Below, one piece after another: positions 1,904 to 28,070 of a stretch of DNA of 28,070 nucleotides (positions within the stretch are counted from its first letter, which is position 1; every line of letters starts with the position of its first letter). Origin of the DNA: a virus; the IMG/VR virus record IMGVR_UViG_3300006805_000121, positions 1-28,070 of that record, one strand, 5' to 3'. The notes below the pieces were generated by a model. It was not told the origin of the DNA and made no database searches. It saw only the letters and a list, made by a program, of their open reading frames with translations. Position numbers and translations under genes: made by a program.

Positions 1904-4030
1904 ATGAACACCTTCCAAACCATCGAAACCACGCGGCTGTTTGAGTCTCCGCTCAACCCGCGCAAGCACTTCAACCAGCCCGCCCTGGACGAGCTCACGG
2001 CCAGCATCGCCATTCATGGCGTGCTGCAGCCGCTGCTCGTTCGACCCGACAACCAGGGCCAGTACGAAATCGTCAATGGTGCCCGCCGCTACCGCGCCGC
2101 GATCGCCGCCGGGCTGACCCAGGTGCCCGCCATGATTCGCGAGATGACCGACGAGCAGCTGCTCGAAGCGGCCGTCATCGAGAACCTGCAGCGCGACGAC
2201 CTGCACCCGCTCGAAGAGGCCGAAGGCTACGGCCGCATGATGCAGGATCACGGCTACTCCGCCGACAGCCTGGCTGAAAAGATCAGCAAGTCCCGCAGCT
2301 ACATCTTCGGCCGCCTGAAGCTGCTCGACCTCTCCGAGGATGCCCGCCGCCTCTTCTACGCCGGCACGCTCAACGCCTCTACCGCCTTGCTCGTCGCCCG
2401 TATCCCGACCCACAAGCTGCAAGCCAAGGCCATCGAGGACATCACGCAAACCAACTATCACGGCGACACCAAGTCAGTCCGTGAGGCCGGCCGATGGATT
2501 CGCGATCGTTACATGCTGCGCCTGGCCGATGCCCCCTTCCCCACCGACGACGGCGAACTGGTTGCGCTGGCCGGCCCCTGCGGTGCATGCCCCAAGCGCA
2601 CTGGCAACGCCCCGGAGCTCTTCGACGATATCGAAAGCGCCGACGTCTGCACCGACCCCGACTGTTTCACGACCAAGAAGATGGCCGCAGCCGAGCGCCG
2701 CATTCAGCAGGCCGGCAAAGACATCCAGGTCATCACCGGCGAAGAGGCCGAGAAGATCATGCCGTCTTACCAGGCCGAGTCCCGCACCCACGTCAAGCTC
2801 GACAGCCCCTGCTACGACGACCCCGACCACCGCACCTACCGCGAAATCATGGCTGACGATACCGACGGCGTCGCCATGATCGAGCACGGCCACAAAGGCG
2901 AGCTGGTCGAGGTCGTGCCCAAGAAGGTCATCGCCGAAAAGCTCAAGGCCGCCGGCGTCGTCACCCGCAAGGAAGTCGAGAAGGAAGACAACAAGAAGCT
3001 ACTCGCCCGCGTCAAGCTCGCCAACCACTGGCGCGACAAGATGTTCAAGCAGGTACGCCAACTGGCAGGCAAGGAAGCAAAAGAGGAAGGCATCAGCCAC
3101 CTGCTGCTCGACGCCATGCCCATCATTGCGCTGCGTTTCCTGACCGAAGTCGGCTTCGACAAGGGCGGCAAGGTGTGCGGCCTGTGGGGTGCCATCGGCA
3201 CTGACAACTACGCCCGCTTCGATGCCTTCAAGTTCGGCCTACCAAATCTCTCCCTGGAAGAGCAATTCCTCTTCATCCTCGACCTCGCCCTGATCTCCGA
3301 CCACACCGTTGACCAGTACAACGTCGCCAACGAACCCGGCAACCTCATCACCTTCGCCCGCGCCCTGGAAATCGACCCCGACGCCCTGCTCATCGAGGCC
3401 AAGGAAGAGATAAAAGCCGCCGAACTCGCGAAAAAACCCAAGAAAACCCCGAAAAAAGCCCGTTCCGTGCCCTCTGACGCCCATCTTCCCCCTACCGAAG
3501 CTGCGCAGGCGGGGGATTTATCGCGCGCGAAAAGCGAAGGCGGCGCGCCCGAAGCTGCGCCGGCGGGCGGGGAAAACCCGCTCGAAGAAGCAACGGCGGA
3601 AGAGCAGTCGAGCGCCTCTATCGAGGCGAACGAAACACCATCCGACGGCGTTCCCGTCTTCGCGGTGGGCGATACCGTGCTCGTGCTGGATGTCCCGAAT
3701 CCTGAATATGGAATCCGGTCTGGACTTGCTGGGCAAGGTGGTGAGATCAGCCAGATTTATATCGATGGCCGTCGGTCACCGATCCTTGTCGTTATTGATG
3801 GTGAAGAATATTCGTTCGACCCAGCCCAGCTGCAGCGCATTGCCTGGCTTGAAGAAAAGGCAATCGAGACGGACGCAAAACCATCCATCTCCAAATACGG
3901 CATCGCGATCAAGTACCGCCACCCCGACAACGCCGAGCTGGAATGGACCGGCCGAGGCCGTAAGCCAAAGTGGGTAGAGCACTGCCTGACCAACGGCATG
4001 ACCCTGCAACAACTGGAGATCGCAGCATGA
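1904..4030 (+). CDS. ParB-like DNA-binding protein fused to an H-NS-type C-terminal domain (708 aa)
   Basis: Residues about 10-110 form a ParB/Srx-type N-terminal domain: PLNPRKHF, then IHGVLQPLLVRP, YEIVNGARRYRAA and a box with ENLQRDDLHPLEEAEGY. A ParB helix-turn-helix follows (SLAEKISKSRSYIFGRLKLL). A Cys cluster near 227-255 (CGACPKRTGN, then CTDPDCFTTKK) looks metal-binding, as in other phage/plasmid ParB-like proteins. After a Lys/Pro and then Ala/Glu/Ser-rich linker (about 505-600) there is a small beta segment (GDTVLVLDVPNPEYGI), and the last 47 residues carry KYRHPDNAELEWTGRGRKPKW, the H-NS family C-terminal DNA-binding motif (WTGRGRKPKW at about 681-690). Ordinary ParB proteins lack this tail. 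No ParA is nearby. It could act in genome maintenance, silencing or control of early transcription; the role is inferred. Confidence 0.85.
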   Translation: MNTFQTIETTRLFESPLNPRKHFNQPALDELTASIAIHGVLQPLLVRPDNQGQYEIVNGARRYRAAIAAGLTQVPAMIREMTDEQLLEAAVIENLQRDDLHPLEEAEGYGRMMQDHGYSADSLAEKISKSRSYIFGRLKLLDLSEDARRLFYAGTLNASTALLVARIPTHKLQAKAIEDITQTNYHGDTKSVREAGRWIRDRYMLRLADAPFPTDDGELVALAGPCGACPKRTGNAPELFDDIESADVCTDPDCFTTKKMAAAERRIQQAGKDIQVITGEEAEKIMPSYQAESRTHVKLDSPCYDDPDHRTYREIMADDTDGVAMIEHGHKGELVEVVPKKVIAEKLKAAGVVTRKEVEKEDNKKLLARVKLANHWRDKMFKQVRQLAGKEAKEEGISHLLLDAMPIIALRFLTEVGFDKGGKVCGLWGAIGTDNYARFDAFKFGLPNLSLEEQFLFILDLALISDHTVDQYNVANEPGNLITFARALEIDPDALLIEAKEEIKAAELAKKPKKTPKKARSVPSDAHLPPTEAAQAGDLSRAKSEGGAPEAAPAGGENPLEEATAEEQSSASIEANETPSDGVPVFAVGDTVLVLDVPNPEYGIRSGLAGQGGEISQIYIDGRRSPILVVIDGEEYSFDPAQLQRIAWLEEKAIETDAKPSISKYGIAIKYRHPDNAELEWTGRGRKPKWVEHCLTNGMTLQQLEIAA

Positions 4031-17731: not shown

Positions 17732-17785
17732 GCTGCGTAGTCTCGTTTTTGACGGGGGGTAAAACTAGGCAAAAAAGTTCCGCAG
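17729..17785 (-). repeat. Late-gene repeat element, copy A
   Basis: The 22-bp core at 17761-17782 (AAAACTAGGC...AAGTTCCG) is identical to copy C and one base different from copy B. A second block, GTAGTCTCGTTTTTG, is also shared with copy B. The core ends 29 bp before the ATG at 17731. Possible late promoter or translation element. Confidence 0.75.
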
Positions 17786-24862: not shown

Positions 24863-24916
24863 GTCGCGTAGTCTCGTTTTTGGCGGGGTTGAAAAATAGG
24901 CAAAAAAGTTCCGCAG
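24860..24916 (-). repeat. Late-gene repeat element, copy B
   Basis: The core at 24892-24913 differs from copies A and C in one base (AAAAATAGGC). It shares the second block GTAGTCTCGTTTTTG with copy A. The core ends 29 bp before the ATG at 24862 of the protease/capsid gene. Confidence 0.75.
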
Positions 24917-24920
24917 GGGA

Positions 24921-26519
24921 TCAGGCATTCGAGTCCGGCGGAGTGTTGCCATCCTGGGCAGCAGGGTCGGGCCGGGCCGGTGCATCGGGCGGGCCATAGA
25001 TGGCCTCTTCGGCAGCGACTTCGGCAGCGATCTCATCGGGGTCATCACCACGCTGCAGGATGATCCGGCGGCGGCTGGTGGTGCGGTTTTTGATGTTGAT
25101 CTCGTCGGCCGTGGCTTCCTTGACCGGATCGATACCGGCCCAGCGGCGTGGCTGCCAGGTAACACCATCCTGATAGGCGGCGATCTTTGTGTCATCAAGG
25201 CCAGGCGTGCCGAGCACCAGGTAGGGCAGGACGACGCGCATCACTTCGGCATGCAGCCAGTCACGGATGATGCCCTGCACGCGCTTGTAGTGTTCGCGCT
25301 CGGCCACGATGCCGACCCGGGCCGACGAGTAATTGACGGCCTCAAGGTCGTTGCCCAGGGTGACGTAGGACATGCCGCGCGCGGCGGCCCAGCCCCGCAG
25401 CTGCTGCTTGACGTAGCCATCGGCCGAGACATCGGGCCACTTGGATTCGAAAGGCTTGAAGTCGTAGCCGTGCGGCAGGGTGTCGAACTGGCCCGGCATG
25501 GTTGTGCTGTACTTCTCGGCAGCGGCCGTGATGGCCTGTACTTCCTCGGCCGTCAGTACCTTGCCCTGTGCCTTGGCGGCTTCGAGTACGCTGGAAACAA
25601 TGGTGTCGGCAAATCCCGGCGGGGCATCGCCCTCCAGGCTGGTGAAGAAGCCCTGGCGCTTGGCGGCATTGGTGCTGGCGACGGCGGCCGACTCTTCGAA
25701 ATCATGCAGCATCCAGAGGCGGCGGGCGCCGCCGGACAGCCAGGGATAGCCGCGCAACTGGCCGATATGGCGACTGACGAAACCATGCCGTACTTCGCTG
25801 GCAGGCAGGCGGACATGCTGGCCGACGGTCAGGGTATCGCCGAACTCTTCGCCGGCCTTGACGGCACGAATCCAGTACGCCTGGGGCCGGCCATCGTTGT
25901 CGATCTCGATACCCATGCGGACACGGTTGCCGAGCCATTCGCGATTGAGGGTGACGTCGAGCAGATTGGGGTTGAGCAGCTGGATCTGGATGCCGTACTT
26001 GCCCTTGCCGGTACGGAAGCGATAGAGCAGCTCGCCATCTTCCGGGCCGGCGGCGAGCGCCAGGCTTTCAACGGCACGCCAGCTCAGGCCGGAGACTTCG
26101 CAATCCTTGCCCCAGTCGGTGAACGCGGCCTCGATGCGCTCATTGGTTTTTCTGTCGAAGGTGCCGTCGCGCTTCTTGAGGCGCATCTGCAGGGGCATGC
26201 CGGTATCGCCGAGCACGCCGTCATCGAGGCGCAGCATGTAGCCGATGGCCCACTCGTCATTGCGCGACATGGCCCGGGCACGGGCGCGCAGGGTCGGCAG
26301 TTGGCGGGACAGGTCCTCATTGATGGCGCCGGCCGTAGTCGGCCAGTTTTCCACCCAGGCCGGGGTCTCGGCGGCAGCAAAGCTGCGGGCCGCATGGCGC
26401 GTGCTGGCGAGCTGCTGGGTCTGGATTGATCCGGCGATATTGCGGACGGTGTTGTTGAGCCAGTCCGCCCGCTGGGCAGCGGTTTCCTTTGGCTTGCGGA
26501 AGTAGTCAAGCAGGCCCAT
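24921..26519 (-). CDS. Portal protein, lambda gpB-type (532 aa)
   Basis: ATG 26519 (MGLLDYFRKPKETAAQRADW) lies one base after the previous stop. Regions such as SRNDEWAIGYMLRLDDGVLG, HGFVSRHIGQLRGYPWLSGG and YVTLGNDLEAVNYSSARVGI match the lambda-type portal family (Phage_portal_2). It forms the dodecameric DNA channel at one capsid vertex. The C-terminus is acidic and Pro-rich. Confidence 0.92.
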   Translation of the reverse strand: MGLLDYFRKPKETAAQRADWLNNTVRNIAGSIQTQQLASTRHAARSFAAAETPAWVENWPTTAGAINEDLSRQLPTLRARARAMSRNDEWAIGYMLRLDDGVLGDTGMPLQMRLKKRDGTFDRKTNERIEAAFTDWGKDCEVSGLSWRAVESLALAAGPEDGELLYRFRTGKGKYGIQIQLLNPNLLDVTLNREWLGNRVRMGIEIDNDGRPQAYWIRAVKAGEEFGDTLTVGQHVRLPASEVRHGFVSRHIGQLRGYPWLSGGARRLWMLHDFEESAAVASTNAAKRQGFFTSLEGDAPPGFADTIVSSVLEAAKAQGKVLTAEEVQAITAAAEKYSTTMPGQFDTLPHGYDFKPFESKWPDVSADGYVKQQLRGWAAARGMSYVTLGNDLEAVNYSSARVGIVAEREHYKRVQGIIRDWLHAEVMRVVLPYLVLGTPGLDDTKIAAYQDGVTWQPRRWAGIDPVKEATADEINIKNRTTSRRRIILQRGDDPDEIAAEVAAEEAIYGPPDAPARPDPAAQDGNTPPDSNA

Positions 26520-26520
26520 A

Positions 26521-27078
26521 TCAGCCCTTTCCGGCGCGGTAATGAACCCGGCCTGGCGAACCACCGCCCTGCAGCATGAGCAGCGCGGCATTTTCCTTGG
26601 CGACCAGGGGCCGGTATTTGTCAATCAAGGCCTGAATCTGGTTGATGTCCCGGAACTTCATGCGGCGGCCGGCAATCTCGTACTCTTCGACAAGCGCCTT
26701 GCCACCGGTCAGGTAGGCAGCCAGGGCAGCCTCCGCGGCATCGAGGGCGCGCTTGTTGAAGCTGCGGCCGTCGTGTGTGATGGCAACCGTGAGGTCCGGC
26801 AGGATGGTTACAGCCTTCTGGCCGATCGTGATGCGGTCGGTACCCTTCTCGATCCAGCTCACCAGGGTGGCTGGGCCGGCTGACCAATCCTTGGTATCAG
26901 TTGCGGTCAGGGCAATAGCATAGGTATCGCCATTTGCTGCGGTGGGGATATCGACCGCTGTACCGGATGACCAGAGCAGGCGGTAAGCCAGAACCCAGCC
27001 AGCTCCGGCCGGGTAGTCGGGGAATGACTCAGACCAGGCGGCCGAGTCGCCAGCGCGTAGTGTGGTGGGTTCGTTCAT
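26521..27078 (-). CDS. Head-tail joining protein, gpW-like with N-terminal beta domain (185 aa)
   Basis: The N-terminal part (AAWSESFPDYPAGAGWVLAY, IALTATDTKDWSAGPATLVS) looks like an Ig/beta-sandwich domain; the C-terminal part (RALDAAEAALAAYLTGGKAL, YEIAGRRMKFRDINQIQALI) has the helix-hairpin-helix layout of gpW. In lambda order gpW sits between terminase and portal. Here its upstream neighbour is a repeat element and then cassette-like DNA instead of terminase. No ribosome site precedes the ATG at 27078. Confidence 0.68.
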   Translation of the reverse strand: MNEPTTLRAGDSAAWSESFPDYPAGAGWVLAYRLLWSSGTAVDIPTAANGDTYAIALTATDTKDWSAGPATLVSWIEKGTDRITIGQKAVTILPDLTVAITHDGRSFNKRALDAAEAALAAYLTGGKALVEEYEIAGRRMKFRDINQIQALIDKYRPLVAKENAALLMLQGGGSPGRVHYRAGKG

Positions 27079-27128
27079 GCGCGCAGTGTGGGCGCGCGGG
27101 GTTGCTAAAACTAGGCAAAAAAGTTCCG
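27076..27128 (-). repeat. Late-gene repeat element, copy C
   Basis: The core at 27107-27128 is identical over 22 bp to copy A and ends 28 bp before the ATG at 27078. The second block of A and B is missing here. A separate 15-bp inverted repeat (GTTGT-N5-ACAAC, 27140-27154) lies just upstream. No gene is seen in 27079-27210. Confidence 0.75.
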
Positions 27129-27188: not shown

Positions 27189-27227
27189 GAATAGACGGCG
27201 AGAATGCCGTCTACTTCGCGTTGGGCC
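27189..27227 (+). other. Half attC-like site / left junction of the cassette region
   Basis: An 8-bp hairpin (TAGACGGC/GCCGTCTA) is followed after six bases by G^TTGGGCC, which is exactly complementary to the GGCCCAAC that opens the next attC. No matching left-hand box is seen upstream. It is either a decayed attC or a secondary insertion point. Confidence 0.5.
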
Positions 27228-27438
27228 GCAGGCTTCGCACCGTGATTTCGTACTCAGGCTCACCGTTCGCTGTAACTACGACTGGCTCCCCTCGTTCAAG
27301 CACATGCTGCGCAACAGCAGCACAGGCTTCGCCGGTAACGTCAGTCTTATTGCTTGCCCACGTCATCCCGTCCTTCAACACGCTTCCGCAGAAAATCCTG
27401 TTCGTGATCGGGCTCTTTGCCACATGTAGATTTTTCAT
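27211..27438 (-). CDS. DUF7446-like small phage protein in a cassette (75 aa)
   Basis: ATG 27438 has GGAGGAACC upstream. The protein starts MKNLHVAKSPITNRIFCGSV and contains KDGMTWASNKTDVTGEACAA and EPVVVTANGEPEYEITVR, a layout I associate with the DUF7446 phage family. Function unknown. It lies almost wholly within the cassette 27221-27510 but runs opposite to the attC direction and ends 10 bp beyond the boundary. It is read in the late-operon direction. Confidence 0.7.
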   Translation of the reverse strand: MKNLHVAKSPITNRIFCGSVLKDGMTWASNKTDVTGEACAAVAQHVLERGEPVVVTANGEPEYEITVRSLRPNAK

Positions 27439-27455
27439 GGTTCCTCCGGGCCAGC

Positions 27456-27517
27456 GGCCCAACAATTCGTTCAAGCCGATGCCACTTCGTGGCACGGCTT
27501 AACTCAGGCGTTATGCC
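27456..27517 (+). mobile_element. attC: Integron attC site 2
   Basis: Boxes GGCCCAAC (27456-27463) and GCG^TTATGCC (27508-27517) flank a hairpin: GTT[C]AAGCCG[A]TGCCAC, loop TTC, then the perfect complement GTGGCACGGCTTAAC. Two bases (C 27472 and A 27479) bulge out, as in real attC sites, and the sequence closely resembles the aadA-cassette attC from memory. Cut expected after G 27510. Confidence 0.88.
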
Positions 27518-27874
27518 TCATGCCGCGCCCGTCTGATCCATCATCACCGTGCGGGCCAGAGCCTCACACGTCGGGCAGGTATCAAACGGCGTCTGTCTCG
27601 GCTGCGCTGCCTGCTCCATCGCCAGATAGATGCGCTCCAGCAGCGCGGCAGACAAAACAAAATCACCTCGCGCCAGCATGATGTCGTGCGCCGCTCCGAT
27701 CATTTCCCGCGTTACCGTCGTCTCGCCAACGCCGACTTTCGCCGCCTTCAGTTCCGCAATCGCCGTCAGCGTCTGGTCAGGGTCACCGCAACCGTCATCA
27801 CCAATGCCAAGCGCCTCGTCAATTGCGGCCAGAGTGCGTACCGCCTGCTCAAACATGCTCTTGTAGTCAGTCAT
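27518..27874 (-). CDS. Hypothetical protein in a gene cassette (118 aa)
   Basis: ATG 27874 has GGAGAACGAA upstream. It starts MTDYKSMFEQAVRTLAAIDE and is mostly helical (MIGAAHDIMLARGDFVLSAA, LLERIYLAMEQAAQ), with a CPTC pair near the end. It fills the cassette 27511-27948 and its stop lies one base outside attC 2. Orientation is opposite to the attC direction. No family recognised; it resembles small accessory genes of phages. Confidence 0.65.
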   Translation of the reverse strand: MTDYKSMFEQAVRTLAAIDEALGIGDDGCGDPDQTLTAIAELKAAKVGVGETTVTREMIGAAHDIMLARGDFVLSAALLERIYLAMEQAAQPRQTPFDTCPTCEALARTVMMDQTGAA

Positions 27875-28070
27875 TTCGTTCTCCGTTCCCATCGCCGGCA
27901 TAACCCGGCAGTCCAGCGGACGCCGTTCCGGCGCCGCTGACTTTTGCGTTAGGGCGCTTCCCGGCATCGAGCATGTCAGCCGCAGCGCGCAATGCCTGCG
28001 CCAGCGCGTCGGATGCCGGAACATGATCTTCATGGGTGTAGCCGTCGCTTCTCCACCCATCAAGGCAATA
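27867..28070 (-). CDS. Partial hypothetical protein reading through attC 3 (68 codons visible)
   Basis: An open frame enters from the right edge: YCLDGWRSDGYTHEDHVPAS, then DALAQALRAAADMLDAGKRP, NAKVSGAGTASAGLPGYAGD and NGERND before TGA at 27869-27867. It overlaps the next start by 8 bp. Its C-terminal 30 residues are encoded by the attC, so the real gene may once have ended sooner. No family recognised. Confidence 0.5.
   Translation of the reverse strand, partial: YCLDGWRSDGYTHEDHVPASDALAQALRAAADMLDAGKRPNAKVSGAGTASAGLPGYAGDGNGERND
27897..27955 (+). mobile_element. attC: Integron attC site 3
   Basis: Boxes GGCATAAC (27897-27904) and GCG^TTAGGGC (27946-27955) flank AGT[C]CAGCGG[A]CGCCG, loop TTC, then the exact complement CGGCGCCGCTGACT: 14 pairs with the same two bulged bases (C 27913, A 27920) as site 2. 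GGCATAAC is complementary to the GTTATGCC at the cassette's other end, the rule for one excisable cassette. Cut after G 27948. Confidence 0.88.

Follow-up and report, generated by a model that had tools for sequence, protein, structure and literature searches.

The window, by which we mean the whole stretch of 28,070 nucleotides that was analysed (IMG/VR virus record IMGVR_UViG_3300006805_000121), contains the minus-strand late operon of a phage, with a head-tail joining gene (26521-27078, minus strand; phrog_5774, E 7e-35) that forms the phage side of the insertion treated here, a portal gene of the lambda family (24921-26624, minus strand; PF05136, E 6e-73, and phrog_21), a tape measure gene and tail genes. 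At the opposite end of the window lie genes for a phage integrase of the ordinary type and for a ParB-like protein, and backbone relatives of the phage were found in Rhodocyclaceae MAGs. Two further features of the backbone may be recorded: a 708-aa protein (1904-4030, plus strand) that joins ParB N-terminal and HTH domains to an H-NS C-terminal domain, an unusual fusion, and an intergenic repeat, GGAACTTTTTTGCCTAg, that stands upstream of late genes at 27111-27127, 24896-24912 and 17765-17781 (all on the minus strand; three copies observed vs 0.02 expected). Similar TTCCTTGCCTA elements lie ahead of the head-joining gene in most relatives, and the repeated element might be a late promoter or operator.

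Next to the head-tail joining gene lies an array of integron gene cassettes with two attC sites on the plus strand, attC1 (27457-27516) and attC2 (27898-27954). The first-pass annotation, made from sequence alone, had placed two such sites at 27456-27517 and 27897-27955, and had claimed that both share the same two bulged bases (C and A), that the cassette ends obey the pairing rule and that such agreement by chance is very unlikely; all of these claims held. Two covariance models recognised the sites. The first (attC1: 62.4 bits, E 4e-13; attC2: 45.2 bits, E 9e-9) was built on ten sites from integrons outside the window's kind, namely class 1 cassettes of a P1 record and Rhodocyclaceae genome sites near integron integrase genes (L099, the source of three of these sites, was later recognised as a prophage-borne array, and the training set is thus not purely bacterial); the second, enlarged to 109 sites, concurred (56.9 and 52.5 bits, respectively). 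These models were made in place of a simple hairpin scorer, which was dropped because it did not separate attC from shuffled DNA. Folding gave the expected hairpin for each site, the two bulged bases (C and A) being on its 5' arm, with z-scores between -2.8 and -4.0 whichever strand was folded. attC1 is of the class 1 cassette (aadA/aadB) type: in DNA similarity searches it showed 81-91% identity over 53-79 bp to class 1 cassette attC, with matches in 3,021 plasmid records, 991 E. coli records and one P1 phage record. attC2 resembles the attC of Rhodocyclaceae chromosomal integrons, similar sites being found near intI in L098 and L100. When the whole locus was searched against the phage, plasmid and E. 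coli collections only attC-sized matches were obtained, and no Rfam family matched the window sites. In about 0.8 Mb of related phage DNA the sole strong match of the enlarged model outside the known loci was L174, a cassette-bearing copy of the window's locus, and a chance origin of the window attC is therefore excluded. The idea of a phage carrying integron cassettes, also put forward in the first-pass annotation, is supported, as the covariance-model test set beforehand as its possible refutation was passed.

With cassette limits set by the G|TT crossover rule, cassette 1 (290 bp, 27221-27510, plus strand) begins with TTGGGC and closes with the G in the R' box of attC1, and cassette 2 (438 bp) occupies 27511-27948 on the same strand, each being supported by a covariance-model match and by R'/R'' pairing (GTTGGGC at 27220 with GCCCAAC at 27457; GTTATGC at 27510 with GCATAAC at 27898). 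Among the seven cassettes of the window, L005 (an overlapping contig) and L002, all four variable bases match in five. Cassette 1 carries a minus-strand gene of 75 aa (27211-27438), antisense to attC, that belongs to DUF7446 (PF24233, E 8.5e-16) and phrog_1578 (E 3.9e-11). The minus-strand gene of cassette 2 (123 aa, 27518-27889) has no known family; its cluster spans 7 loci, with relatives of 84-92% identity in L022-L025, and those in other phage contigs likewise occupy attC arrays with the same inversion. Cassette 3 starts at 27949 and continues on the plus strand to the window's end at 28070 and beyond; the 3' end of its gene (27867-28070, minus strand; the gene as a whole is L005:4187-4579) reads through attC2. 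At the left boundary of the array (27192-27220, plus strand) a hairpin, TAGACGGC-gagaat-GCCGTCTA, is followed by CTTCGC and the crossover G|TT, a layout that resembles the attI of phage integrons. We nevertheless rejected this boundary as a clear attI, since it did not match the phage attI profile significantly.

The array does not stop at position 28070. The IMG/VR contig L005, which possibly comes from the same sample or a related one, overlaps the window's end over 4,375 bp at 100% identity and then runs on past it. It adds two attC (L005:4100-4158, which on the evidence of the overlap and a covariance-model match ends cassette 3, and L005:3732-3804), so that the array comprises at least four attC by covariance model. 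Beyond the array L005 contains, in order, a gene of 83 aa, the large terminase gene (phrog_15, E 6e-149), an additional ORF and the gene of the small terminase, which places the array between the terminase side (the gene after terL) and the head-joining and portal genes. The first-pass annotation had proposed to look past 28070 for terminase and more attC, and both are found here; the longer array, the inversion of the genes relative to attC and the IntI and attI encoded by related phages had been missed. No integron integrase was detected in the window and L005 by a TIGR02249 search at E <= 1e-30, though the phage genome is perhaps incomplete. The array is a CALIN, having at least two attC that obey the R'/R'' rule and no integron integrase nearby, although recombination with such an integrase is inferred; with neither an IntI nor a boundary significantly matching attI, the window itself is not a complete integron. 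Two other ORFs of L005 deserve mention: one of 180 aa (L005:530-1072) between the small and large terminase genes, and one of 58 aa beyond the last attC (L005:3568-3744), which ends ...AACGCCTGA inside that attC and could be a fifth cassette that has lost its own attC.

The gene after terL and the head-joining gene stand only 50-67 bp apart in about 14 relatives; with attC present, the gap between them spans 1,829 bp in L005, 651 bp in L017 and 1,143 bp in L174. Because the gap is nearly empty in these relatives and filled with attC or other cargo elsewhere, the array is an insertion into an accessory hotspot. Cargo without attC matches was observed in the gap after terL in L154, L161, L166, L168-L170, L172 and L179. 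The small gene that follows terL, just ahead of the hotspot, matches a late transcriptional activator family (phrog_836) in L396 (2868-3167, E 4e-7) and L306 (5055-5321, E 0.005); its counterpart in the window phage (L005:3287-3538) matched no family. attC-bearing DNA also occupies the window's insertion site in G157 and G158. The gene order of G158 is terL, attC array, IntI, head-tail adaptor and portal, so that a whole integron takes up the window's gap. G157 encodes terL, portal, head and tail proteins, an endolysin and a phage integrase, the last adjoined by an IntI with an early array; two late attC of the same contig lie between the terL-side gene and the head-joining gene, i.e., in the window's position, and the late boundary matches the attI profile (E 0.004). 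Since IntI was present in only 2 of the 49 records searched (window included), integrase-less arrays like that of the window are common.

The cassette genes of the window are encoded on the minus strand, against the plus-strand attC; in the window, L005 and L002 together no cassette gene is sense and five are antisense (that of cassette 1 with Pfam support). For a wider comparison, IMG/VR was scanned with a pattern for one attC type (69 stretches, 295 modelled attC), and gene strand was set by a codon model plus family matches, which took the place of a first count by longest ORF that had proved noisy. Under the codon model, genes on the same vs the opposite strand to attC numbered 60:14 in bacterial arrays (4 of the 14 belong to the L099 prophage), 5:184 in the viral arrays found by attC pattern and 16:134 in viral IntI loci (10 of the 16 from one bacterial-like contig); the bacterial control is drawn mostly from one family, Rhodocyclaceae. 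Counted per locus, with some loci overlapping or near-copies, 102 of 108 viral loci were inverted and six sense; three of the six are one bacterial-like contig, and another, L329, falls within the viral IntI group. Polarity was also checked without reference to genes: R'/R'' complementarity was found in 166/208 and 134/158 cases in the modelled direction vs 40/208 and 24/158 when reversed, and viral arrays kept the pairing rule of cassette ends at 80-86% vs about 9-14% in shuffled sequence. The stop codons of the inverted genes are concentrated at the edge of attC, and 108 of 380 end 6 bp inside attC, which may reflect a TAA created at the crossover. Matches to attC on both strands were seen in two viral contigs, L231 and L249. 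Cassette genes antisense to attC are one criterion for the inverted phage integron that we propose, and the window meets it.

Integron integrases were traced from the prophage L099 (G001:C6), a relative of the window phage in which ParB and SSB genes are followed by seven attC with inverted genes and a terminal integron integrase. With this integrase as query 388 viral stretches were found, and the best 80, which were retained, contain 222 attC; of those upstream of intI, 211 are on the opposite strand to that gene and none shares its strand. In the IntI tree (n=112; midpoint root, sampled bacteria mostly of one family) a fork with support of 100/97 parts 68 rows (67 viral and the prophage L099) from the bacterial rows. 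Five phage IntI that were tested reached 425-473 bits against TIGR02249 (cut-off 265), and terL was present on 23 of 50 long IntI contigs (15 of the GpA type and 8 Terminase_6). The phage records searched held no close relative of the phage-group IntI (best match 55%, class 1 IntI1), and in 369 host-class genomes only those of G001 (76%) and G584 (72%) came close; nearly all of the viral sequences are metagenomic contigs. The attI of these integrons was located with the exact 7-mer predicted from the R'' box of the first cassette. In 44 of 52 IntI loci this 7-mer stands ahead of intI or close to the start of the gene, its distances clustering at -82, -61, -55, -46 and -43 bp; phage attI mostly lies 39-82 bp before intI. 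The attI sequence is conserved on the intI side (about CTTAAATTCRACGACACC...) and variable on the cassette side, the trace expected from attI x attC insertion, and the attI profile also recovered the held-out attI of G159 and L099. A viral-group IntI and a conserved attI occur in G157, G158, G159 and the prophage L099. Both are absent from the window, which therefore fails this further criterion of the inverted phage integron and is at most an integrase-less satellite.

We consider it very likely that the feature of the window is an integrase-less cassette array (CALIN) of a phage-specific inverted integron lineage, situated within the late operon of a siphophage that is temperate and lambda-like. 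The identity of the attC, the cassette boundaries, the continuation past the window, the near-empty site in relatives and the antisense genes are shown. For the relatives it is likewise shown that phages encode an integron architecture comprising a distinct IntI group, a conserved attI and arrays, lying within phage operons, whose genes point toward intI and share its direction. The arrival of the window cassettes can only be inferred, because neither the window nor L005 has an IntI. The cassettes would have been inserted as circles at an attI-like site by an IntI of phage or host origin, either supplied in trans or lost afterwards, which would have cut attC on its folded bottom strand; expression of the inverted genes would come from the phage operon and not from an integron Pc promoter, and the array may serve as a plug-in site for phage accessory genes (e.g., methyltransferases and Mom-like DNA-modification proteins). 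More speculatively, the inverted layout makes the bottom strand the non-template strand, and transcription could expose it for folding. A bolder reading, which we hold to be likely, is that temperate siphophages own an integron lineage, with a phage-specific IntI group, a conserved attI and inverted cassettes read by early or late operons, used for capturing and swapping accessory and counter-defence genes, the window being an integrase-less late-operon satellite of it.

The array might alternatively be a fragment of an ordinary host chromosomal integron gained by illegitimate recombination, as Qi et al. 2023 proposed for phage CALINs, without any phage-specific system. In favour of this are the integron integrase present in 93 of 151 host-family genomes, the similarity of attC2 to Rhodocyclaceae chromosomal attC and the lack of an IntI in the window. 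We regard it as unlikely, however, since the cassette genes are inverted relative to those of host arrays, encode phage-type proteins where they could be matched and recur in other phage arrays, and since the array does not lie at a prophage end but between late genes, at a hotspot that other phages use alike, also with IntI.

An assembly chimera of a phage contig and a bacterial cassette array, an alternative already raised in the first-pass annotation, could be suspected because the array stands at a contig end in metagenomic data. This reading was rejected as very unlikely: over 4,375 identical bases L005 spans the array together with the flank on either side, and it goes on into terminase (albeit perhaps from the same or a related sample), and independent relatives, in MAGs and other contigs, bear attC in the same gap that is near-empty elsewhere. 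Equally improbable are late-operon terminators or mRNA-processing hairpins that merely resemble attC. Near-palindromic attC between co-directional genes would fit such elements, but under the bacterial-attC model the conserved R boxes, the bulged bases and the polarity give scores well clear of background, and terminators leave the pairing rule of viral cassette ends unexplained.

Phage CALINs and phage-borne IntI are already known: Qi et al. 2023 (PMC9892861) described 17 phage CALINs, as well as four IntI-bearing cases, temperate phages or prophages linked to host or class 1 integrons. Those CALINs are, like that of the window, integrase-less attC arrays inside phage genomes, some with methyltransferase genes; one of them, MW202573 (L002), has at least four attC by the same model and, in the present analysis, cassette genes opposite to attC. 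In that paper we found no account of a phage IntI group, conserved phage attI, systematic gene inversion or a late-operon hotspot. In the open-access literature searched (preprints were outside its scope) we found nothing that describes a phage group of IntI with inverted cassettes and an attI to itself, and no direct precedent for a phage integron lineage other than Qi et al. 2023. With canonical chromosomal and class 1 integrons the phage integrons share a TIGR02249 IntI, an attI next to intI, the polarity of attC with respect to intI and the R'/R'' pairing; they differ in that canonical cassette genes diverge from intI, whereas those of phage arrays run toward and with intI, in phage operons. 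The 'atypical' integrons of Treponema (PMC3607928) also have co-directional intI and cassette genes, but there intI is transcribed toward attI, while in phages attI immediately precedes the start of intI, which is the canonical arrangement, and the cassette genes are flipped relative to attC instead. Phage moron or accessory-gene hotspots resemble the window in holding variable cargo at a fixed late-operon gap; the cargo of the window differs in being delimited by attC that obey the cassette rules.

If the phage lineage is real, phages would do more than pick up stray integron pieces: they would operate their own integrons, coupled to phage transcription programmes, and would possess a mechanism for the fast exchange of accessory genes, including those for DNA methyltransferases and Mom-like modification proteins. 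Such a lineage might be an outgroup or a source for bacterial integrons, cassette gene orientation would not be a fixed integron rule, and gene flow between phages and integrons would become directly testable. Pipelines that assume sense cassette genes may overlook inverted cassettes. The inverted cassette proteins amount to 392, in 294 clusters, and 112 of the cassette proteins were tested for families. Most of these had no informative Pfam match; the matches obtained include DNA methyltransferases, a Mom-like protein, NinX, a DHH phosphoesterase, an exonuclease and an RNA ligase.
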